IMG/VR virus record: IMGVR_UViG_3300047469_000109
Span: 1-50,134 of that record
DNA from: a virus
Reading direction: 5' to 3' (one strand)
DNA length: 50,134 nucleotides
Made by a program: the position numbers and the translations under genes. The stretch's first letter is position 1, and each line of letters starts with the position of its first letter. The notes under the pieces are model-generated. The model saw only the letters and a list, made by a program, of their open reading frames with translations. It did not search any database and was not told the DNA's origin. Shown one piece after another: positions 1 to 50,134 of the stretch.

Positions 1-127
1 TGTCGCGTGTAATTGGGCTTTCCGCCTGCGAATTCGGTCCAATGGCTATTGCCTTCTTCACCTGAGTAGTGCTGCCCATCGCGCCGCGACCGATGGCGAT
101 AACGCTTCCCGTCGATCCGACGTCGTA
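1..127. repeat. Exact 127-bp direct repeat, left copy
   Basis: Bases 1-127 are identical to 48715-48841; the match ends at base 128 (G against A). The length equals a common assembler k-mer, and the copy sits exactly at the sequence end, so it most likely marks where a circular genome closes. Confidence 0.9.
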
Positions 128-286
128 GGAATCCGGCAGTGTCGCCAGCGCATTCTCGCCGACAGCAATTTTGCCACCCACTGTCAGCGCGCGGCCTTGA
201 GCAAACGCCGCTGCATCAGCTTTTCCGCTGAACGCTGAGTTAAGCTGCGAGGCCGTTAAAATTTGGCCGCTTTGAAAATTCGACAT
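1..286 (-). CDS. Tail fibre, native N-terminal part (cut by the left edge)
   Basis: An open frame starts at ATG 286 (MSNFQSGQILTASQLNSAF) and runs off the left edge without a stop. It lies 25 nt behind the baseplate wedge gene, the usual place for a receptor-binding fibre. After about 40 unique residues it becomes homologous to the large fibre near 48.8 kb (GGKIAVGENALA motif). From residue 54 on it is identical to it at DNA level and in the same frame. Joining base 1 to base 48714 gives a continuous 568-residue fibre ending in a self-processing S74-type chaperone domain. I infer that this is the phage's own fibre and that the break comes from assembly at the repeat. Its role would be host attachment at the baseplate periphery. 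Confidence 0.85.
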   Translation of the reverse strand, partial: MSNFQSGQILTASQLNSAFSGKADAAAFAQGRALTVGGKIAVGENALATLPDSYDVGSTGSVIAIGRGAMGSTTQVKKAIAIGPNSQAESPITRD

Positions 287-311: not shown

Positions 312-1043
312 CTAGAACAGGCTAGAGCCGTCTAGTGAGAATGTGGAATCGAGATAAGCCGACGATGAGCCGGGACCGTTTGAAATGGCAACCCATGCAA
401 TCGTCGCGGCGGGCAGCACTGAGGCGATGGCGGCATAGATCGCCGCGTCGGTGACGCCGGTCGTCATGCTGCCGATACTTGCGTACTCAGCGCGCGATGG
501 CGTCGCGTAGCCGCCCGGCGATGTGCCATAACCCTGAACGAGCGGGAGGCCGGAACCGGCCGGGCGATAGGCTTTGACGAATGCTTGATAGGTCAGCAGC
601 AGCGAGCCGTATGCGCCCGCGACGCCATAACCAACGCCTCCCGAGCGGTATGCGCCCGTATCCTGCGGTCGAGTCGGCTCGATGATGACTGGCGCGCGCC
701 CGGTGAGGTCCGTCAGAATCTTTGTCACCGCCGCGCGCGTGCCGCGCTCTCGGATGATGTTGATTTTGATGCGCGTGCGATATGCCGCGTCCGTCTCGTT
801 TTGCAGCCGGAGCAGCCCGGAAGGGCCGAAGTAATCCGCCGCCGCGATGTCGAGCCAACCATCGGTCGATGTTTGCAGCCGGGTTTGCGCGAGAAGGTAT
901 TGATACGCCGCGTAGACGGTTACGAACGCCGATGCGATGCCACCGATCAGCGCGTCGAGAATGGGCGAATCGGAGCCGAACCAGCCGTTCGGCATACGCG
1001 CTTTGATGCGCGCGAAGAAATCAGCCTGATCACCTGTAGCCAT
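312..1043 (-). CDS. Baseplate wedge / tail protein (Mu gp48-like position)
   Basis: A 243-residue protein between the baseplate J-like protein and the fibre, the slot held by Mu gp48 or P2 gpI. It would join the baseplate wedge to the fibre. The N-terminal half (residues about 1-130, with GWLDIAAADYFG and RTRIKINIIRERGTR) looks like a wedge protein. The C-terminal half is rich in Gly, Ser and Tyr and ends STFSLDGSSLF, as in proteins touching fibres. ATG 1043 overlaps the previous stop as TGATG, which indicates translational coupling. A TTG one codon upstream is possible but less likely. The family is assigned mainly by position. Confidence 0.75.
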   Translation of the reverse strand: MATGDQADFFARIKARMPNGWFGSDSPILDALIGGIASAFVTVYAAYQYLLAQTRLQTSTDGWLDIAAADYFGPSGLLRLQNETDAAYRTRIKINIIRERGTRAAVTKILTDLTGRAPVIIEPTRPQDTGAYRSGGVGYGVAGAYGSLLLTYQAFVKAYRPAGSGLPLVQGYGTSPGGYATPSRAEYASIGSMTTGVTDAAIYAAIASVLPAATIAWVAISNGPGSSSAYLDSTFSLDGSSLF

Positions 1044-2194
1044 CAAGACACCGAGATTGACGAGGATTTGATGACCTGCTGACTCGTCGCCGCGAGGTCA
1101 ACCGTCGCGCCGTTGATCGTCAGGGTGAGCACGCTCAACACGTCGCTCGATGCGTCGATTGCGATCTGACCGAGTTTGAAGTACGGCAGCTTTGCGCCGA
1201 GCGGAAGCGTGTTGATGTAGGCCGAAATCGCAGACTGCACGAGCGCGCACGTCGTCGAGTGATTGACGCCTGTCGAGGTCGTTTGCAGCGTCATCACGAC
1301 CGTCGCATTGACTACCGTCGGCGCGAACACGCCGAACGTCGAGGTGAACGGCCGCACGGCATCGACAGCGTTATAAACGGTCGATAGCACAGGCGAACTC
1401 GGCGAGCCGGTTCCGTCATCGACGACAACAGCGAAATATCCCATCTGCGTTGCGCCGCCGAGCGTCTGGTTCTCGATGATCGTGTAGGTGTAGTTCGCGC
1501 CGAGCGCCGTAATCGCCGCGCCGATTGCCGCCTTCGTCGCCCGTGCGAGTGACGCGAGATAGCCGACGAAGCGCGTGCGTGCGGCGGCGTCCGTTTCCGC
1601 GTCGACGCCGTTCGTGAAGGGCAGAGCGTTCGTCACCGTGTCGACAAACGGAATCGACTGGTAAAGCGCGGTGATCGTGTTCGCGCTCACGTTGCCCGAC
1701 GAATCAGGCAGGCTCAGCGAGTTCGAGCCGGGCGTGATGCTGACGACCGCGCATGTCACCGAGGCTTGACCTGCCGCAATGACGAAGCCGCCGAGCGTCG
1801 CGCTATAGGCCGCATTCGTCGTGTCAGCGACGACTTGATATTGCTGCGTGCCGTCGCCAGTCTGAACGATGGAGCCGACCGGAACGACCGCCTGCTGCGT
1901 CGTCGTGAAGCGCGAGAACGTGACCGAGCCGCTTGCCGCTGTCGGGGCGAGGCGAGTGAAGCCGAACTGCGCGAGCCAGGTGTCGAGGTCCGCGCCGTTC
2001 GACGTCGCCGCGCGCGTCAGGGCGATAGCGGCGAGAATGAGACCTTGGAGCCAGAGCGCAACCCATGCCGTTCCCTCGCCGATGGCGCGAAGCACCGAGC
2101 CGATGACGAAGTTCACGAGAGAGGATGCCGCGCCCTGCACCGTCGTCGCAAACCCGGTTAGGAGTTGCGTGAAGGATTGGGTATTGACGCTCAT
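1043..2194 (-). CDS. Baseplate J-like protein (Mu gp47-like)
   Basis: A 383-residue wedge protein of the contractile-tail baseplate. The Mu gp47/P2 gpJ pattern is visible: a hydrophobic N-terminus (about residues 25-65, LQGLILAAIALTRAATSNGADLDTWLAQFG), a beta-rich centre, and the conserved GVDAETDAAARTRF block near residue 195, followed by a C-terminal region with ALVQSAISAYIN. The start overlaps the upstream stop (ATGA), so it is coupled to the gp46-like gene. Size and order (45, 46, 47, 48) match the Mu baseplate module. Confidence 0.88.
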   Translation of the reverse strand: MSVNTQSFTQLLTGFATTVQGAASSLVNFVIGSVLRAIGEGTAWVALWLQGLILAAIALTRAATSNGADLDTWLAQFGFTRLAPTAASGSVTFSRFTTTQQAVVPVGSIVQTGDGTQQYQVVADTTNAAYSATLGGFVIAAGQASVTCAVVSITPGSNSLSLPDSSGNVSANTITALYQSIPFVDTVTNALPFTNGVDAETDAAARTRFVGYLASLARATKAAIGAAITALGANYTYTIIENQTLGGATQMGYFAVVVDDGTGSPSSPVLSTVYNAVDAVRPFTSTFGVFAPTVVNATVVMTLQTTSTGVNHSTTCALVQSAISAYINTLPLGAKLPYFKLGQIAIDASSDVLSVLTLTINGATVDLAATSQQVIKSSSISVS

Positions 2195-8861: not shown

Positions 8862-10412
8862 TTACTGAACGCTCGACTGAATTTGAACCGCCTGCCCGCC
8901 TTGCAAATTGATCACGAAGTACAGCACGACCGACAGGTACTTGACCTTGACATCGGCTTGCATGTAGCCCGCTGCAACTGCGCTGTCGGGGTTGTTCGCC
9001 TTGTCGATCTGAACCGTGAACGGCGCGACGGTCGGATTGTTGACGTCGCCAATCATGTTCAGGCGCCAGAGATTCGACAGGAACGATTGCATCGCCGCGC
9101 GAACGTCGGTGCGCAGGTCGACCGTCTGGTTCTCGCCGATGACCTTTCCAAACGCCGCCGCGAGGGTCAGCGCGAGGTAGTTCGTCATGCGGCTATAGTT
9201 GTCGCCGTCCTGACCCGCCGTGCTCGATGCGTTGCCGCCCGTTTGCGCCGCGTAGTAATTGCCTCCCGGCGACGGGTTGCTGATCACGTCGAGGCGCGCC
9301 TGATTGATCGCGCTGATTTCCGAGCTCGTGTAGGGCAGGTTTTGCGCGACGCGCTGCGTGCTGACGATGCCGAAGAGCGGCTTGTTCAGGCTCGATTGCT
9401 CCGGCGAGAGCGCCGCTTGCTTTCCAGCCCAAAACGTCGCCGGCCCGAGCAGGCGGTTTTGCTGATTCGTGCCGTCGAAGTACGTGACCCAATCGCCGAC
9501 GAACACTTTTAGGCCATAGCCATCTGCGCCCGCCAAATTGAGCGCGGTCGAAACGGTCGCGTAATTCGCGCTCGGCGCGCCCTGCATGCCGAAATAGATG
9601 CCTTCGGACAAGCCAAACGCGAGCACCGTCGATGCGGCGGTGAGGTCCGAGTGATCGACCAGGCAACCGACTTGCGCGCCCGTTCCGCGCAGGCAGTACA
9701 TGCCCTTGCGCGTGCCGGCGTTGCCATCGACGCCGACGAGCAGCGAATCGGTGAGCGTCGCCGTGCCGTCCGTACCGGTCGCGAAGGTCGCGGGCGTCGT
9801 GATGTTCGGCGCAGCGGTTGCGGGGCCAGTGGTCGCGACGACGAGCTGCGAGGGGCCGCGCACGTTGCTTTGGCCGTTGTTGATCGCGTTGACGATGTTC
9901 GTCCACAGCGTCGCGCCCGTGCCGCCGATGTTGTCGAACACTTCGGCTTGCGTGCCAGGCAGCGAAATCGTGACCTTGAACGTGCTCGCCTTGGTGCCTG
10001 CGGTGACGGCTGCGGTGATCGAGTTGCCGCGCGTGCCGGTGTAGATCGCAGTCAGGTTCGCGCCGATTGCGGGCGTGCCTGCGGTGTCCATCAGCTTGCC
10101 GGTCGCAGCGGTGTCGGTGCCGTCGGTGACGCGCACGTACTGGATCGCGGTCGCGCCTTGCAGGAAGAACACCGCCATCGCGGTCGCGAGGTCGTACTTG
10201 CGAACCTGCGGAGCGCCGAGCCATTGCGTGACATCATTCGGCGAGCCGACGAGAACCGGCGCGTTCACCGGACCCCACGAGCCGATGCCGACCGCGCCGA
10301 GCACGTTCGACGGCACGCCGTTGATGATGAGGGGAGGCGGTTGAATCTGGAGATAGACGCCGGGCGCGGAGAGCGCGCTGACATTCAGGGAGCCAATTTG
10401 ATAGATCGGCAT
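8862..10412 (-). CDS. Tail sheath protein
   Basis: A 516-residue sheath. The N-terminal MPIYQIGSLNVSALSAPGVYLQIQ and PSNVLGAVGIGSWGPVNAPV show the 'PGVY...G..G.a..GP' pattern of contractile sheaths. The C-terminal RLNMIGDVNNPTVAPFTVQ and YLSVVLYFVINLQGG complete the handshake domain. It polymerises around the tube and contracts during infection. The length is typical of Mu-like or P2-like sheaths. It defines the window as a myovirus. Confidence 0.93.
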   Translation of the reverse strand: MPIYQIGSLNVSALSAPGVYLQIQPPPLIINGVPSNVLGAVGIGSWGPVNAPVLVGSPNDVTQWLGAPQVRKYDLATAMAVFFLQGATAIQYVRVTDGTDTAATGKLMDTAGTPAIGANLTAIYTGTRGNSITAAVTAGTKASTFKVTISLPGTQAEVFDNIGGTGATLWTNIVNAINNGQSNVRGPSQLVVATTGPATAAPNITTPATFATGTDGTATLTDSLLVGVDGNAGTRKGMYCLRGTGAQVGCLVDHSDLTAASTVLAFGLSEGIYFGMQGAPSANYATVSTALNLAGADGYGLKVFVGDWVTYFDGTNQQNRLLGPATFWAGKQAALSPEQSSLNKPLFGIVSTQRVAQNLPYTSSEISAINQARLDVISNPSPGGNYYAAQTGGNASSTAGQDGDNYSRMTNYLALTLAAAFGKVIGENQTVDLRTDVRAAMQSFLSNLWRLNMIGDVNNPTVAPFTVQIDKANNPDSAVAAGYMQADVKVKYLSVVLYFVINLQGGQAVQIQSSVQ

Positions 10413-19150: not shown

Positions 19151-20464
19151 TTATCGGTGAAGGTGATCGGATTGCGTGCGTTGCGCGGGAATCCAGCGGT
19201 GTTTCGTCCACAGGTAATAGCCGACCGAATCGGGCATGTGATCCGCGCCGGATTTCTTATCCGGTTGCCCTGTGTTCGGGTCGTAAATCAACTGCTCGAA
19301 GCACTGGATGACGTTCTCGCACGACGGGTCGACGAAATAGCGCCGCACTCGGTCGCCGTTGAGCAGCCATCCGTTGACGTAGTTGATGCGGTCGCGGATC
19401 GTCGGGTGCGCGTTCATGTGAATGACGCGAAAACCCTTCTCGCGGAGAATGCTCACGTCCGTCTTGCCCTGCGCGCTCGTCTTCTGCTGCGTGCCGGCCG
19501 GGTCGGGATAGATCGTGATGTGCGACAGGTCTTTCTTCGTCGGGTCGAACGACTCGCGCCCGTATCGCTCGATGATTCGATCGGCGAGATCGTGCGTGTT
19601 GCTCGACATCACCGCGAATTCGCCGACGCACCAGATTTCGCCGTTCGGCTGCTCCTGATGAACGCTCGCGCTCATCGGGTTCACGTTGAAGTCCATGCCG
19701 ATGTGCAGCGGCAGCGCCGGGTTATACGGGCAGGGCTTAACGCTCTCTTTGCGGTCGAAGCACAGATACACCGTGCCTTGCGTCAGGTTGACGAAATGAC
19801 CGTTAAGATAGGCGTCGATCAGTTGCGGCGGATACGAGGCGCGCAGTGTGTCGACGTAATCGGCCGGCAGAAACGGGTTTGATGCCGTCGGCGCCTGGAT
19901 CATCACGTAACCGCGCTTTTCCGCATCCTCTCGCTTCTTCGCCCACATCTCATAGGCGAATTTGAAGCCTTCCGGCGTCGTGTACGCATTGACGCGATTG
20001 AACGGATTTTCGATTCCATCCGGCTTTTGCCGGTTACGAGCGATGATCTTTTGCCACGCAAGCCGCGCCTTATCGGTCGGCAGGGTGTCGATTTCGTCGA
20101 CGTGTGCTCGGTAGCTCTGATAGCCGACGATGCGCGCCGGGTTCTCGAGCGTGCGCAGCACGAAGTCGCCGCAACGCCCGGAACTGACGTAAATGATGTT
20201 TTCTTGCTTGTTGTAGCGGTAGCGCAGCCCAAGTTCGGACAGCTTTTCCTCCATTCGCGGCGCCAGGATCAGGCGCACGAGGTCGAATGTCGGTTCGTAC
20301 ATGGCGATCATCGAGTCGCCGGATTGCAGCGCGTCGCGAATGGCGCAATTCGCCATCGTTTCGGTTTTGCCGACGCCGTAACCGCCGCAGAAGAGATTGA
20401 ACTTTGACTCGAGACTGAAGAACTCAGCCTGCGGCTCCGTCATTGTGAAGCGTATTGAGCGCAT
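19151..20464 (-). CDS. terL: Terminase large subunit
   Basis: A 437-residue packaging ATPase/nuclease. Walker A is GGYGVGKTET near residue 27. The Walker B area is RAHVDEIDTL near residue 120. The RNase-H-like nuclease begins LHIGMDFNVNPMSA near residue 235, with a second acidic site ITIYPDPAGTQQ and a late GADHMPDSVGYYLW. It cuts and pumps DNA into the prohead with the small subunit. The gene starts inside the end of the GIY-YIG gene (41-nt overlap); ATG 20443 is an alternative start. Confidence 0.93.
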   Translation of the reverse strand: MRSIRFTMTEPQAEFFSLESKFNLFCGGYGVGKTETMANCAIRDALQSGDSMIAMYEPTFDLVRLILAPRMEEKLSELGLRYRYNKQENIIYVSSGRCGDFVLRTLENPARIVGYQSYRAHVDEIDTLPTDKARLAWQKIIARNRQKPDGIENPFNRVNAYTTPEGFKFAYEMWAKKREDAEKRGYVMIQAPTASNPFLPADYVDTLRASYPPQLIDAYLNGHFVNLTQGTVYLCFDRKESVKPCPYNPALPLHIGMDFNVNPMSASVHQEQPNGEIWCVGEFAVMSSNTHDLADRIIERYGRESFDPTKKDLSHITIYPDPAGTQQKTSAQGKTDVSILREKGFRVIHMNAHPTIRDRINYVNGWLLNGDRVRRYFVDPSCENVIQCFEQLIYDPNTGQPDKKSGADHMPDSVGYYLWTKHRWIPAQRTQSDHLHR

Positions 20465-23098: not shown

Positions 23099-23124
23099 AA
23101 CAGCGAAAATAGTTGTTGACTGTT
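23099..23124 (+). repeat. Operator-like 26-bp block, copy 1
   Basis: Begins AACAGCGAAAATAG and ends TTGACTGTT, with AACAG/CTGTT as its outer dyad. It is identical to copy 2 at 24754 and differs at two positions from copy 3 at 26561. It contains the -35 hexamer of the rightward promoter. Confidence 0.8.
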
Positions 23125-24753: not shown

Positions 24754-24799
24754 AACAGCGAAAATAGTTGTTGACTGTTAAATCTCTGGTGGGTAGTAT
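24754..24799 (+). promoter_or_regulatory. Operator-like block copy 2 with rightward promoter
   Basis: The 26-bp block (24754-24779) is identical to copy 1. TTGACT (24771) and TAGTAT (24794) are 17 bases apart. Confidence 0.75.
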
Positions 24800-26560: not shown

Positions 26561-26607
26561 AACAGCGAAGATATTTGTTGACTGTTCTGCTACCTCGCGG
26601 GTATGCT
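26561..26607 (+). promoter_or_regulatory. Operator-like block copy 3 with rightward promoter
   Basis: 26-bp block at 26561-26586, differing from copies 1 and 2 at two positions. TTGACT (26578) and TATGCT (26602) are 18 bases apart. Confidence 0.72.
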
Positions 26608-39340: not shown

Positions 39341-39616
39341 CTATTCGCCGCCCCGCTTCCGCCGCGCCAGCTCGCGCCGAGCGCCTTCAACGATGACTTC
39401 GGACATCGGAATGTCGGTCAGCTTCATGTATGCCCGCAGCGCTTCGTACAGGTCTTTCGGCATGTTGACTGACATTTTCTCGCTCGGCGGCTTCTCGCGA
39501 AACATCGGGCGCGCTTCGGCGGCGTCGGGTGCATTTTCTGCGGGGTTCGGCGCGGCGATCGAGGTTCCGCTCGCGAAGGCGTCGACCATGCTGCGATTGA
39601 GCGGCGGATTAGCCAT
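39341..39616 (-). CDS. Ribbon-helix-helix protein, partner of ParA
   Basis: A 91-residue protein, disordered for 45 residues, then EKMSVNMPKDLYEALRAYMK and DIPMSEVIVEGARRELARRK, an Arc-like ribbon-helix-helix. Small RHH proteins act as ParB-type centromere binders with short ParAs. The start overlaps the parA stop by 8 nt. It ends beside the origin. Confidence 0.78.
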   Translation of the reverse strand: MANPPLNRSMVDAFASGTSIAAPNPAENAPDAAEARPMFREKPPSEKMSVNMPKDLYEALRAYMKLTDIPMSEVIVEGARRELARRKRGGE

Positions 39617-40262
39617 TGAGCACCCCCGCGAGCAGCGTGCCGAATTCATCCGTCGCCTTCCCGTCTCGGTATTCCGCGGGCAACTCAAGGACCGACAGCC
39701 CGAGTTTTGACCCCTTCCGGTACGCGGCGCGGTCGATGATCGTCGGACCCAATTCGAAATCGTCGCTCATCTCTTTGATGACGTCGATCGACTCGTCAAG
39801 TTCCGCTTTGATGTAGTGCGGAACGGCATTCACGAAAGCGATCGCGCGAACCTGCGTCGGCAGCGTCGCCCGCCTCTCGCGGACGATCTGCGCGGTTTGC
39901 GCGAGGCTCCACGTATCGAACTGGCCGATGCGAAGCGGGATCAGGATGATGTCGGCGACGGCCATCGCGACGCGCGTCTCGACGCCAAGGTTCGGCGGGC
40001 AGTCGATGACGATGTGATCGAAATTCGGCTCATCGGCGGCGACAGCATGCCCGTAATTCTGATCGACCCGAACGACGCTCAGGCTGTGCGGCACGCCTGA
40101 ACTCACGCGCACCTGCCCCCATTGATACGCGCTGCTCTGATACGGGTTCGCATCATACAGGCGCACGCTCGCGCCCTGCGATGCGAGCGCACCGGCGACA
40201 TTGGTAGCGGTCATGGTCTTACCCACCCCGCCTTTCTGCATCACGACCGCAATTATGCTCAT
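39609..40262 (-). CDS. parA: ParA-family partition ATPase
   Basis: A 217-residue ATPase of the short (type Ib) ParA class. Deviant Walker A is MQKGGVGKTMTATNVAG; VIDCPPNLGVETR is Walker A'/B region; IPLRIGQFDTWSL follows. No N-terminal HTH, so autoregulation would come from the RHH partner. GGGAGGG precedes ATG 40262. It moves plasmid copies along the nucleoid. Confidence 0.92.
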   Translation of the reverse strand: MSIIAVVMQKGGVGKTMTATNVAGALASQGASVRLYDANPYQSSAYQWGQVRVSSGVPHSLSVVRVDQNYGHAVAADEPNFDHIVIDCPPNLGVETRVAMAVADIILIPLRIGQFDTWSLAQTAQIVRERRATLPTQVRAIAFVNAVPHYIKAELDESIDVIKEMSDDFELGPTIIDRAAYRKGSKLGLSVLELPAEYRDGKATDEFGTLLAGVLNG

Positions 40263-40320
40263 ACACCCTCCCAGGTTGTTGTGCCGGTAGGGTAGCGGAC
40301 GGGCGCGCATACTTCAAGTG

Positions 40321-45236: not shown

Positions 45237-45803
45237 TCAGTGCCATGAAACGGCATGCACGTCGGCGATCGTTGCAGCAGAACGGGTTTCAGCCTTCAGC
45301 ACTTGAAGCTGATTGAACGCGACATTGCCTTGCGCGAGCATCACGCCATACAAGCCCTTTAAGTCATCTAGCGCGAACGGAACCTGCGTGTTATCGAGTG
45401 CGACCCAATAGAAGCCGGCCGGCGTCGCGCCAGCAAAACCGTACCCGGTTACTGCAATGAGCAGCGTGTTTTGACTCGCGGTATCGGCTTGGAACGTCTG
45501 CGAGATGCCCGCGACCGTCTTGTATGCGACTGCGACCTGAGACGCGGCTTGATACTCGCCGTAAAGCTCGGCAATCTTGGCGGCTTGAGTTGCAGCAAGC
45601 AGATCAGATGCAGACGGATCGCCCGACGAAAACGCGTTGCCGTCGTACAGCATGCCAGGCTGAACGCTCGCGTCGCAGGCGACAAGCTCCGCCACGAAAT
45701 AAGCGGTGAATCGAGATTCGATCGGAATCTCGACGCCCTCATCATCGAGAATCGGCGTGATGACTTCCACCACGCGCCCGTTCGCTACATAGGCATAGTT
45801 CAT
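45237..45803 (-). CDS. Tail fibre accessory / assembly-like protein (DUF4376 style)
   Basis: A 188-residue protein from ATG 45803 (MNYAYVANGRVVEVITPILD). The N-terminal 'YA.V.NG.VVE' and later LLAATQAAKIAELYGEYQAA are typical of proteins that follow phage fibres and are thought to help assembly. The start overlaps the adhesin stop (TAATG). Confidence 0.75.
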   Translation of the reverse strand: MNYAYVANGRVVEVITPILDDEGVEIPIESRFTAYFVAELVACDASVQPGMLYDGNAFSSGDPSASDLLAATQAAKIAELYGEYQAASQVAVAYKTVAGISQTFQADTASQNTLLIAVTGYGFAGATPAGFYWVALDNTQVPFALDDLKGLYGVMLAQGNVAFNQLQVLKAETRSAATIADVHAVSWH

Positions 45804-47179
45804 TACGCGTACTCCTCGATAATCACGCAACCGGCTCCGCCGATTCCACCAGTGGTTCCAGCTTGCGTTGCGTTCACGGCCCCGCCGCCACCACCCGCAC
45901 CCACCGAAGCCGCAGGTTTGCCAATCGTATTTGCCAGGACCGCCGCGCCACCGCCGCCGCCAGTGAGCGGCGAATGGCCGCCTGCGCCTGACAGCGCACC
46001 GTTAGCAAGCGAGGTACAAGCGCCCAAGATGCCCGCATTGCCGCCGGTAGAGACGATTGCCGTAACGCTCCCGCCGAACGTGGGAGCGCCGGACGGGACG
46101 CCGCCCACTTGCAAGTACGGAGGTGCGCTAGCCAAACCGACCGGCCCGCCACCTCCCCCAGACGCCGTAATGAGCGAGCCAAGTGACGATGCGCCGCCGT
46201 TCCCGCCATTTCCGCCAACGCCACCGAATGCACCGGCCGCGCCGACAGTGACCGCTTGCGACGCGCCGATTATTGCAGCGGTGATCTTGCTAACGCCAAG
46301 CGAACCTGAGGCACCTCCTGAACCGGTTGCTGCTTGCCCTGTCGACGTAGTAGCAGCTCCGCCGCCGCCACCACCACCACCCAGAACTTTAGCGATTACG
46401 AAGCTCGCCGAACTCGACGGTACATAAGTCGAGGCGCCGGTCGTCGTCGGCGTGCCGCCGTCGATCGACACGTTTTGCGTGCCGCTAACATTCGTGTACA
46501 CCAGCGTGCGAATCAAGCGCCCGGCCGTCGGCACAGCGGCGATCGCCGTCGCGTTCGCCTGAATTTGCGCGAGCATGCTTGCGGTCAGAAACGGCGCGCC
46601 CGCTACCTTGGCGATGTTGCCCGCTACAACAGTCGAAGCGCCGAACGCGACCGTGATCGTGTAGAGCGCGATTTGTCCAACAGGCGTTGCGGGCGTCAAT
46701 TGCGAGCCGGTCGTCGCGGGCACGCCAGCGGTCAGCGTCAATTGCACCGTGTCTTGACGGAGCGTGTTCTGCGATGCGCCGGTTCCGTTCGGCCCGCTGA
46801 AAGCTTGAGAGGGGTTCGATGCGTTGTAATACGGCAGCACGACCGCGTTCGTATCGGCTTCAAGGAACGCGCCGGAGATCAGATATACGATCGATTGTCC
46901 GGACGTGACCGGCGCGGGCGTCGCGAAGGTCTGCGCCGTCTTGAGAATGCCTTGCTTCTGCGTCACGGTCGAATCAGCCGCGAGCGACGAGTAAGCCGTC
47001 GCGTCGAGCGCCGCTTGCGCATACACCGCGCCCGGCTGCACGATGACGTTCATCGCGGCGGGCGTATTCGGAACGCAGGCGAGGCCGGTGAAAACGGTCG
47101 AAGTGCCGAGCACGTCTTGCGCGAACTGACCGAGCGCGAACATCGCGTTTTTGTTGGTGTTGAGCAGGTCGCTTTCCAA
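45803..47179 (-). CDS. Glycine-rich tail adhesin
   Basis: At least 458 residues from TTG 47179. The N-terminal 270 residues bear fibre-attachment features (SDLLNTNKNAMFALGQFAQD, GAVYAQAALDATAY). The C-terminal 170 residues are built of glycine runs (GGGGGGGG, GGVGGNGGNGG, TGGGGGAAV, GAGGGGGA), the architecture of polyglycine-sandwich receptor-binding tips. An in-frame extension (IIDRVTVYPGAIP) from ATC 47218 matches the usual N-terminus of such proteins, so the true start is probably upstream. Confidence 0.8.
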   Translation of the reverse strand: MESDLLNTNKNAMFALGQFAQDVLGTSTVFTGLACVPNTPAAMNVIVQPGAVYAQAALDATAYSSLAADSTVTQKQGILKTAQTFATPAPVTSGQSIVYLISGAFLEADTNAVVLPYYNASNPSQAFSGPNGTGASQNTLRQDTVQLTLTAGVPATTGSQLTPATPVGQIALYTITVAFGASTVVAGNIAKVAGAPFLTASMLAQIQANATAIAAVPTAGRLIRTLVYTNVSGTQNVSIDGGTPTTTGASTYVPSSSASFVIAKVLGGGGGGGGAATTSTGQAATGSGGASGSLGVSKITAAIIGASQAVTVGAAGAFGGVGGNGGNGGASSLGSLITASGGGGGPVGLASAPPYLQVGGVPSGAPTFGGSVTAIVSTGGNAGILGACTSLANGALSGAGGHSPLTGGGGGAAVLANTIGKPAASVGAGGGGGAVNATQAGTTGGIGGAGCVIIEEYA

Positions 47180-47253: not shown

Positions 47254-47293
47254 TTGGTGATGCGGATGCTATGAAGGCGTGAGCTATTCGAGG

Positions 47294-50134
47294 TCAGGCG
47301 TTCTTCGCCTCAAGTTCCACGACGCGCGCTGAAAGCTCGTGAACCGCCTTGATTAGCGGTGCAATCAGTTCGTCGTACCCGATCGAAAGAACGTCGCAGC
47401 CACCGGCTTTCGCGTGGTCTTGAAAACCGCCAAAATCAATACCCGTTTTTTCAATCAGCGCCTGCACGTCTTGCGCGATCAAGCCATGATGGAAGCGAGC
47501 GCGCGTCTTGCTACCATCCTTCGGAAGCTTCGTGACGGTTCCATCGTCATTTGCGATGATGTAGTCGTCGCGCATGTCCCATTTGTAATCGACGGGGCGC
47601 AACGCATTGATGAAATCGAGGCCAAGGACCGTATCGCGCACGTCCGCTTTGTCGCGCGCATCAGAGCGGTTCTGCACCGTGCCATAGACATAGGTCGTCG
47701 ACGATGAATCGCCAAGCTGAACTTGGTTGTCGCCTGAAACACGCGAACCCGCTCCGATCCCTATGCGGCTCGTTCCAGTTCCAGACGGATTGGAGCCGTC
47801 CGTCATCAAGCGCAAGGCGTCCGATCCAATGGCGACGCAGTTCGTCGCCCCGGTCAACTGCGTCAGCGCGCGATACCCGATCGCCACCGAAGCTGAGGCG
47901 GTCGTGAGTTCGTTTCCGGCGCGGTATCCGATGATCGAACTGTTGTTGATTGTCGTCGCTGCGTTGGCAGCGAGTGCGCCGAGTACCGTATTGTTCTGCG
48001 ACGTTGCTGCTGCCGTCGTGTTGATGTACCAGTAAAGCTGCGCGTTTCCGCTTGCCGTCCGACTGATCGGGTGCGTGACAGTGAACGTATTCGCGTCGAT
48101 GACCGATGCGACGAGAGCCGGCGCAACGTCCGTTTGGAATGTCTGAGATGCGCCGTCGAGCAAGCGAAAGCCCGCCGTGAATCCCACCGACAACCCATGC
48201 GCCGGAATGGTTAGCGTCAGTGTCGTCCCTACTTGCGAGTAGGTGCCAGCAATACTGATGTTCGTGACACTGTTGCCATTGAATCCGCTATTAACTTCAG
48301 CTTGAGATAACGCGCTGTGCCCGACAGCGGTGTTGCCCCGGCCCGCAACAAGCGACGAAGCTGCCGACGTGCCAACGGCGACGTTGTATCCAGTCGTCAC
48401 GCGCGCAAGCGCATATGATCCGACCGCCACGAACCCATCAGAATTGTCGTTGACCGCCCAATTCTCGATAACACCAGATAAACCGATCGGCGCATAACCA
48501 CCAGCGGCGTTCGCGCCGACGACGGTCGATTGGATATTGTCTCTAATACCCTGTCCCGCATTGCGGCCGATAATTACTTGGTTGTATCCGCTTCGAACGA
48601 ACCGACCAGCATTCCCGCCGATGGCGATATTGCGCGTGCCTTGCAACTGCGATTGATCATAGTCCGGCGTCAGCGCGGTGACAAAACGAAGCGTATCCTC
48701 GCCGATGCCGATGTTGTCGCGTGTAATTGGGCTTTCCGCCTGCGAATTCGGTCCAATGGCTATTGCCTTCTTCACCTGAGTAGTGCTGCCCATCGCGCCG
48801 CGACCGATGGCGATAACGCTTCCCGTCGATCCGACGTCGTAAGCATCGGCCAATGCAGCCAGCGCGTTCTCACCGACAGCGATTTTTCCGCCAACCGTCA
48901 GTGCGCGATAAGACTGCATGACCCATTGCGCGATCTTCGTGAGCGTTACGCGAGCAAAGCTGCCTGCCTGCTTGATTACAGCCTGCTCCGTTCCGTCGAA
49001 TGCTGCTGCATCACTTTGATTCGCGGGATCAATTACTTGCGCGATCGTTTTCGCGCCGTGCGCGACGAGATTCGAGCCCTTGCCGGGCGCGCTCAATGCG
49101 AGCGCACTGACCGTCGTCGCAACGCCATTCGCGCCTACGAATCCGACCATATCCGCGCCCTTGCCTGCCACAGCAGTTGCAAGGTCGGTCGCAGATGCGC
49201 CTGTCACAGGAAAGACCACTGTATTGATCAGTACGACAGTGACCGAATAACCAATCGTCAAGCCATTGACGAAGGTGACCTTAGCCCCCGTCGAGTCATC
49301 AAAAGATTCTGTGCGGTTCCAGCGAATACCGTTAACAAAGACTTGCGCCGAGCCAGGGATAAAAGTCACTCCTGCCGGGGGCGTCCACTCGGTCTGTCCT
49401 GCTGCTGCCGTGAAGGTATATTGCGCCTGCGAGGTCAGCAAGGGTGCGATTGTGTTGCGCAGATCATCAAGCGACTGTCCCGCCTGCGTAGCGCTCGATA
49501 CCGCATTGCTTGCGCTTTGTGAGGCTGCCGCTTTCGAATCCGATGCCGCCGCTGCCGACGCAGAAGCATTGGATTCGCTAAGCGCGGCTGCATCCCGAGC
49601 GGCTTCCGCTGCCACCTTGGCCGTGCCTGCTGCCCCCGCACTTTGCGAGGCAGCATCTGCCGAGTGGCCGGCATTCACCTCACTGGTTCCGGCATTCGAC
49701 TCGCTCAGCGCTGCGGCCTGCTTGGAGGCGAGTGCTGCTGTTTCACTGGCAGCCGATGCCACTTGCGAATCATGCGAAGCATTCTGACTGACCAGGGCTG
49801 CAGCTTCCGATGCAGCTGCCGCTCCCATGTGAGCCAAGGAGGAAGACTCAGACGCCGAGGCATTGCTCTCACTCTGGGCGGAAGCCAGCTCCGAAGCGTG
49901 TGCTGCATCCTGACTCAGCTTCGCTGCCGTCTCGCTGTCCTTGGCCAGATCCGCACTGGTGTCTGCGGCCTGTGCTGCAGCGACCGAGGTGTCCAGTGCG
50001 TTGTGGATGTCGGTGACAAAGCCATCGACGTTCTGTTCCAGGTACGTGATGATCGGCAGCTTTTCTGCGACCGAGGCCACCACATCGTAGGCCGTGCCGA
50101 GCGCCTTATCGATGGGGGGTGTCGCATTGACCTT
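47294..50134 (-). CDS. Large tail fibre with S74 chaperone domain (cut by the right edge)
   Basis: At least 946 residues, entering from the right edge (KVNATPPIDKALGTAYDVV). Residues up to about 230 are Ala/Ser-rich lambda-fibre-type repeats. A short domain with TAAAGQTEWTPPAGVTF follows, then a hexapeptide-like stretch (AIGRGAMGS, NIAIGGNAG, NVAVGTSAAS), and at the end RSDARDKADVRDTVLG with FHHGLIAQDVQALIEKTG, a peptidase S74 self-cleaving chaperone. The part left of 48842 is shared with the native fibre at base 1. The part right of it may be another allele. Confidence 0.88.
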   Translation of the reverse strand, partial: KVNATPPIDKALGTAYDVVASVAEKLPIITYLEQNVDGFVTDIHNALDTSVAAAQAADTSADLAKDSETAAKLSQDAAHASELASAQSESNASASESSSLAHMGAAAASEAAALVSQNASHDSQVASAASETAALASKQAAALSESNAGTSEVNAGHSADAASQSAGAAGTAKVAAEAARDAAALSESNASASAAAASDSKAAASQSASNAVSSATQAGQSLDDLRNTIAPLLTSQAQYTFTAAAGQTEWTPPAGVTFIPGSAQVFVNGIRWNRTESFDDSTGAKVTFVNGLTIGYSVTVVLINTVVFPVTGASATDLATAVAGKGADMVGFVGANGVATTVSALALSAPGKGSNLVAHGAKTIAQVIDPANQSDAAAFDGTEQAVIKQAGSFARVTLTKIAQWVMQSYRALTVGGKIAVGENALAALADAYDVGSTGSVIAIGRGAMGSTTQVKKAIAIGPNSQAESPITRDNIGIGEDTLRFVTALTPDYDQSQLQGTRNIAIGGNAGRFVRSGYNQVIIGRNAGQGIRDNIQSTVVGANAAGGYAPIGLSGVIENWAVNDNSDGFVAVGSYALARVTTGYNVAVGTSAASSLVAGRGNTAVGHSALSQAEVNSGFNGNSVTNISIAGTYSQVGTTLTLTIPAHGLSVGFTAGFRLLDGASQTFQTDVAPALVASVIDANTFTVTHPISRTASGNAQLYWYINTTAAATSQNNTVLGALAANAATTINNSSIIGYRAGNELTTASASVAIGYRALTQLTGATNCVAIGSDALRLMTDGSNPSGTGTSRIGIGAGSRVSGDNQVQLGDSSSTTYVYGTVQNRSDARDKADVRDTVLGLDFINALRPVDYKWDMRDDYIIANDDGTVTKLPKDGSKTRARFHHGLIAQDVQALIEKTGIDFGGFQDHAKAGGCDVLSIGYDELIAPLIKAVHELSARVVELEAKNA
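48715..48841. repeat. Exact 127-bp direct repeat, right copy
   Basis: Identical to bases 1-127. Beyond 48841 the two sequences remain homologous for roughly 80 bases, then become unrelated. Confidence 0.9.

Follow-up and report, generated by a model that had tools for sequence, protein, structure and literature searches.

The question raised by this locus is why a contig whose first 127 nt recur exactly near its right end continues for a further 1,293 nt, and to which virus these nucleotides belong. The window analysed is an entire IMG/VR virus record of 50,134 nt. Self-comparison showed that positions 1-127 are identical to 48715-48841 (R, Table 1) and that the two sequences part at base 128/48842, whereas the longest repeat expected by chance in the window is about 16 nt. 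Past R a weaker homology persists between 128-193 and 48842-48907, with 51 of 66 nt identical, and then stops. A minus-strand reading frame stays open through both possible junctions: on the circular path it encodes a 568-aa fibre (286..1 joined to 48714..47294) starting with MSNFQSGQILTASQLNSAFSGKADA, and on the linear path a 946-aa fibre frame that is still open at the window end, 50134. The final 127 nt have no second occurrence anywhere in the window. An earlier note on this DNA had reported that the two 127-nt stretches are equal and that their frames agree, and the exact match and the open frames at both junctions bear this out.

Table 1. Features of the 50,134-nt window relevant to the closure at R and to the surplus sequence.
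Feature	Coordinates	Strand	Remarks
Overlap R, first copy	1..127	.	Contig start, inside the fibre gene; 127-nt overlaps also in G001, G002, G003, G005
Native 5' part of fibre gene	1..286	-	N-terminal anchor MSNFQSGQILTASQLNSAFSGKADA; continues over the circle junction into 48714-47294, 568 aa in total
Diverged homologous flank of R	128..193	.	51/66 nt versus 48842-48907; ends at the codons for RALTVGGKIAVGENALA
Baseplate gene I-like	312..1046	-	Left border of the fibre slot; phrog_26379 (E 4.4e-84) plus baseplate families; synteny
Baseplate J-like protein	1043..2194	-	Pfam PF04865, E 3e-27
Tail sheath	8862..10412	-	phrog_23, E 2.6e-35; marks a contractile tail
Terminase large subunit (TerL), window phage	19151..20464	-	phrog_2, E 5.5e-41; other family than that of the podophage
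Second fibre/tail gene, glycine-rich domain	45803..47179	-	Right border of the slot; phrog_863, E 2.2e-35; synteny
Shared C-terminal fibre module	47294..48841	-	YadA-head-like repeats; Peptidase_S74 intramolecular chaperone at the C-terminus
Overlap R, second copy	48715..48841	.	Point of circle closure and of the contig's exit
Foreign 1,293 nt	48842..50134	-	Predicted to be most of the N-terminal half of a Schitoviridae (N4-like) tail-spike gene; first codons beyond the window

A scan with the window's baseplate J protein gathered 45 related loci, most of them from one metagenome series, and the ends of the near-complete relatives were compared for terminal repeats. Three of these records (G001, 47,532 nt; G002, 48,423 nt; G003, 48,727 nt) repeat exactly 127 nt at both ends, the repeats falling at differing genome positions, and in a fourth (G005, 49,904 nt) the first 127 nt recur at 47,256, followed by 2,522 nt of other sequence. 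An exact repeat of k-mer length thus joins the circle ends in the window and in four relatives. Because R has the same length as the overlaps in the relatives, its length is set by the assembler, as suspected in the earlier note, which had called 127 a common assembly k-mer; the value k = 127 is taken from the relatives' overlaps and from the CheckV text, according to which repeats as long as assembler k-mers come from circular templates (PMC8116208). Our case is like that one in that the repeat equals the word length and marks a closed circle, and unlike it in that the contig runs past the repeat into a second phage. As the contig continues beyond the repeat, a check for end-to-end repeats would miss its closure. 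The record G005 is a second IMG/VR example of this closed-circle-plus-tail type, with a foreign-looking tail (L140) that has no match to its own start (L139) and lies near early genes, away from any fibre gene.

These comparisons leave next to no room for a linear 50-kb genome of which the 127-nt repeat would be a genuine terminal redundancy or an integration repeat. Such a reading would account for an exact direct repeat close to both ends, but R sits inside a fibre gene, the same 127-nt length is found at other positions in the relatives, the second copy falls short of the contig's right end, and the sequence past it belongs to another virus.

Closure at R leaves the genes uninterrupted and restores the gene order of the family. 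In more than 30 relatives this order is baseplate J, baseplate gene I, a slot, and the genes corresponding to 45803, 45237, 44864 and 44220; once the window is closed, the 568-aa fibre occupies the slot between gene I and the next fibre gene, in agreement with the proposal in the earlier note that closing restores a fibre beside its baseplate genes. The slot (312 to 47179 across the circle) then measures 1,846 nt, compared to 1,842 nt in L106 and 1,848 nt in L088-L092. Together, the 127-nt closures in relatives, the synteny and the slot length make it well supported that positions 1-48714 represent one complete circular phage genome closed at R, the 48,714-bp circle of the earlier note. A near-DNA search with window positions 1-25000 against phage records found no match.

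The phage of positions 1-48714 (hereafter the window phage) encodes a tail sheath, baseplate proteins V and J, its own TerL, a portal and a major head protein, and belongs to a contractile-tailed (myovirus-type), Burkholderiaceae-associated family, its relatives lying in Burkholderiaceae genomes. Several other features of this genome were noted. A ParA-like partition ATPase (39609-40310, minus strand; phrog_164, E 2e-38) suggests plasmid-like maintenance as a lysogen. Three near-identical 26-nt repeats (AACAGCGAAAATAGTTGTTGACTGTT; 23099-23124, 24754-24779 and 26561-26586) lie in a non-structural region and contain a -35-like TTGACT, which would be compatible with operator or promoter copies. 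Two stretches are duplicated at an offset of about 2.4 kb (16040-16226/18439-18625, 89% identical; 16547-16704/18922-19079, 75% identical), one copy lying near an exonuclease gene and its counterpart at a gene for a DNA methyltransferase. The product of the minus-strand gene at 41562-43103 matches no family and contains a 21-aa SGALAGVSG-type repeat in many copies.

The fibre in the slot combines a conserved anchor with a distal module. The anchor (MSNFQSGQILTASQLNSAFSGKADA) is 80% identical in L101-L104, 79% in L106 and 41% in L119, and in all of these it directly follows baseplate gene I, with a distal part behind it that differs each time (pectate-lyase-like, GDSL hydrolase). The distal module of the window fibre has a C-terminal Peptidase_S74 chaperone domain, as found in S74-type tail spikes (Pfam PF13884, E 6.6e-11, above the curated cut-off; phrog_4636 tail spike, 1e-133), and is present at 70% amino acid identity in another phage, L008. 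The slot is empty in most relatives, where about 100 nt with a terminator are found, and otherwise contains an HNH endonuclease ORF (L098, L114), an unassigned ORF (L130) or a fibre gene. Across L088-L132, its fibres have a fixed anchor of about 30 aa and a swappable distal part (S74, pectate-lyase-like, GDSL hydrolase or beta-propeller-like). Baseplate gene I itself is enlarged at codons 133-138, by an insertion of about 0.8 kb or, in L126, of 1.4 kb, in five loci (L093, 11541-12328; L095, 2266-3134; L096, 4284-5152; L116, 7875-8719; L126, 5607-7050); the inserted stretch is in frame in L093 and L095, resembles an extra binding domain, and occurs in loci whose fibre slot is in every case empty.

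The surplus 1,293 nt were traced through other contigs. Relatives of the encoded protein were found in L003, L004 and L007, beside podovirus-like genes. Two contigs, L176 and L175, were picked up by scanning with the window's terminal 66 nt, and positions 50024-50134 are identical (111 nt) to L176 7668-7558. Beyond this overlap L176 encodes a 238-aa structural protein (phrog_2125), a TerL (phrog_38) and a 229-aa gp69-like protein (phrog_2109), so that, read via the overlap, the surplus lies directly downstream of gp69-like, TerL and 30 kDa genes. The 238-aa protein has a counterpart with 51% identity in Burkholderia phage vB_BpP_HN02, the "30 kDa protein" of that phage, and the TerL is about 75% identical to Schitoviridae TerL and matches phrog_38 (E 1.8e-96), as opposed to phrog_2 (E 5.5e-41) for the window phage. 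The annotations of two Erwinia phages, Gutmeister and Frozen, place a gp69-like gene first, followed by TerL, a 30 kDa or virion structural protein, and the tail spike. The gene content of L176 and this order identify the surplus as the 5' part of a predicted N4-like (Schitoviridae) tail-spike gene from a virus unrelated to the window phage, the podophage assignment being read from the genes of a 7.7-kb contig outside the window itself. Compared to the gp69-TerL-30 kDa-spike locus of Gutmeister, Frozen and vB_BpP_HN02, the order and families upstream, as read from L176, are the same, but of this second virus the window contains no more than the 5' part of the spike gene.

The second contig, L175, has the same upstream genes as L176 and a spike with a related N-terminus and a different C-terminus, which is the nearest complete spike of this lineage. 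The first codons of the spike are nearly identical between the two contigs, and because the 5' end is so strongly conserved, L176 may come from a close relative rather than from the source podophage itself. None of 11 larger records from the family of the window phage contains the surplus, and a scan of genome contigs with it found only Caballeronia temeraria contig 46, which is the same sequence as L007. Exact IMG/VR scans, one with an 80-nt part of R and one with 63 nt of surplus just outside R, yielded no other contig, and a tblastn search of the surplus against phage records gave no match, probably due to its alanine-rich, fast-evolving middle. The earlier note had described an extra fibre allele explained by mixed alleles, recombination or a second phage; the podophage genes in L176 and their different TerL favor the second phage and speak against an allele or strain mixture of the window phage. 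The note took the surplus for another fibre N-terminus sharing the same middle region; the part common to the two fibres is the C-terminal receptor-binding module and not a genome position.

With a probability of about 0.9, we interpret the record as a chimera in which a closed 48,714-nt circle and an N4-like podophage spike are joined via a shared identical receptor-binding stretch of at least 127 nt. A de Bruijn assembler with k = 127 would have closed the circle of the contractile-tailed phage, and in its graph the R k-mer would have at least one way in (the circle end) and two ways out (the circle start and the podophage branch). The contig would start on the circle's own start, go round, re-enter R and exit by the podophage branch. 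This branch would arise from at least 127 identical nt of one module (YadA-head repeats plus S74 chaperone) carried by both phages, fused in the window phage to a short baseplate-side anchor (MSNFQSGQILTASQLNSAF...) and, in a podophage of the same community, to a long alanine-rich virion-attachment region. As 127 is the assembler's word length, the shared stretch is at least this long and may extend left of 48715; from there to 47294 the contig displays one of the two phages only, or a merged path. At homologous codons flanking R, 23% of sites differ, a rate at which the probability of no difference in 127 nt is 6e-15, and the identical stretch likely reflects a recent horizontal transfer of the receptor-binding module. 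Two observations count against this interpretation: pattern scans of IMG/VR found no N4-like contig with an S74 module, and the C-terminus of the L175 spike is a different one.

A true fibre polymorphism, with a sub-population of the window phage carrying the long N-terminus in its own slot through exchange or switching, would also bring both N-termini in frame with the same C-terminal module, and the slot is clearly variable among relatives. It is nevertheless very improbable, as the long allele is continued upstream by a podophage 30 kDa-type protein and TerL instead of baseplate gene I, the long N-terminus is found in no family member, and the 48.7-kb genome has no copy of the 1,293 nt, hence there is no silent cassette. 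An invertase- or cassette-switched fibre was likewise discarded, the surplus being single-copy and free of flanking inverted repeats.

The junction could also have been made in the library, by PCR template switching between similar, non-identical modules that yielded chimeric reads followed by the assembler. The short diverged homologous flank (51/66) offers a possible switch site, and no natural N4-like contig carrying the S74 module was found in IMG/VR by scans that used exact peptide or DNA patterns on an incomplete sampling. We regard this origin as unlikely: chimeric molecules are rare and usually pruned as low-coverage tips, and the comparable circle-plus-tail record G005 has its junction away from any fibre gene. 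Moreover, sharing of a module between a slot fibre and a podovirus-like spike is seen independently in the window phage's family, where the L088 slot fibre shows, over its last 540 aa at the C-terminus, 70% identity to the spike of L007, a protein related to the surplus in its N-terminal part. This parallel supports module transfer, relative to which a PCR chimera is possible but less likely.

Under the preferred reading of a chimeric contig built on a shared module, the module was probably exchanged very recently between two members of one community, a contractile-tailed phage with relatives in Burkholderiaceae genomes and a lytic N4-like podophage. If this is true, the two phages would either be competitors for one surface receptor or track it together. 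The analysis yields a complete 48.7-kb genome from a record without a simple end repeat, and warns that contigs of the "closed circle plus tail" type can combine two viruses. The fibre slot of the family, with its anchor kept and its distal part swapped or the slot empty, can be compared over dozens of relatives, and therefore the rate and breakpoints of the swaps are testable. As an assembly artefact the contig is ordinary, and as biology it is a modest record of module exchange of a known type, one more case, at the DNA level, in which phages with different tail machines have a receptor-binding module in common.

S74-chaperone tail spikes are known from SPO1 (gp2.52) and Bacillus phage Pascal, with 36-43% identity over 72-97% of the shared module, and both differ from the window fibre in their hosts and N-termini. 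The exchange of receptor-binding modules between unrelated phages is a process already known: the Alteromonas schitovirus A5, the myovirus V22 and the siphovirus-type P24 have a common host-recognition module (PMC10579305). As in A5 and V22, a schitovirus podophage and a contractile-tailed phage would here have a common distal fibre. The fibre of A5, V22 and P24 is served by a separate chaperone gene, whereas the part shared here ends in an S74 intramolecular chaperone domain; the hosts of the two systems are unrelated, and in our case at least 127 nt are identical at the DNA level.
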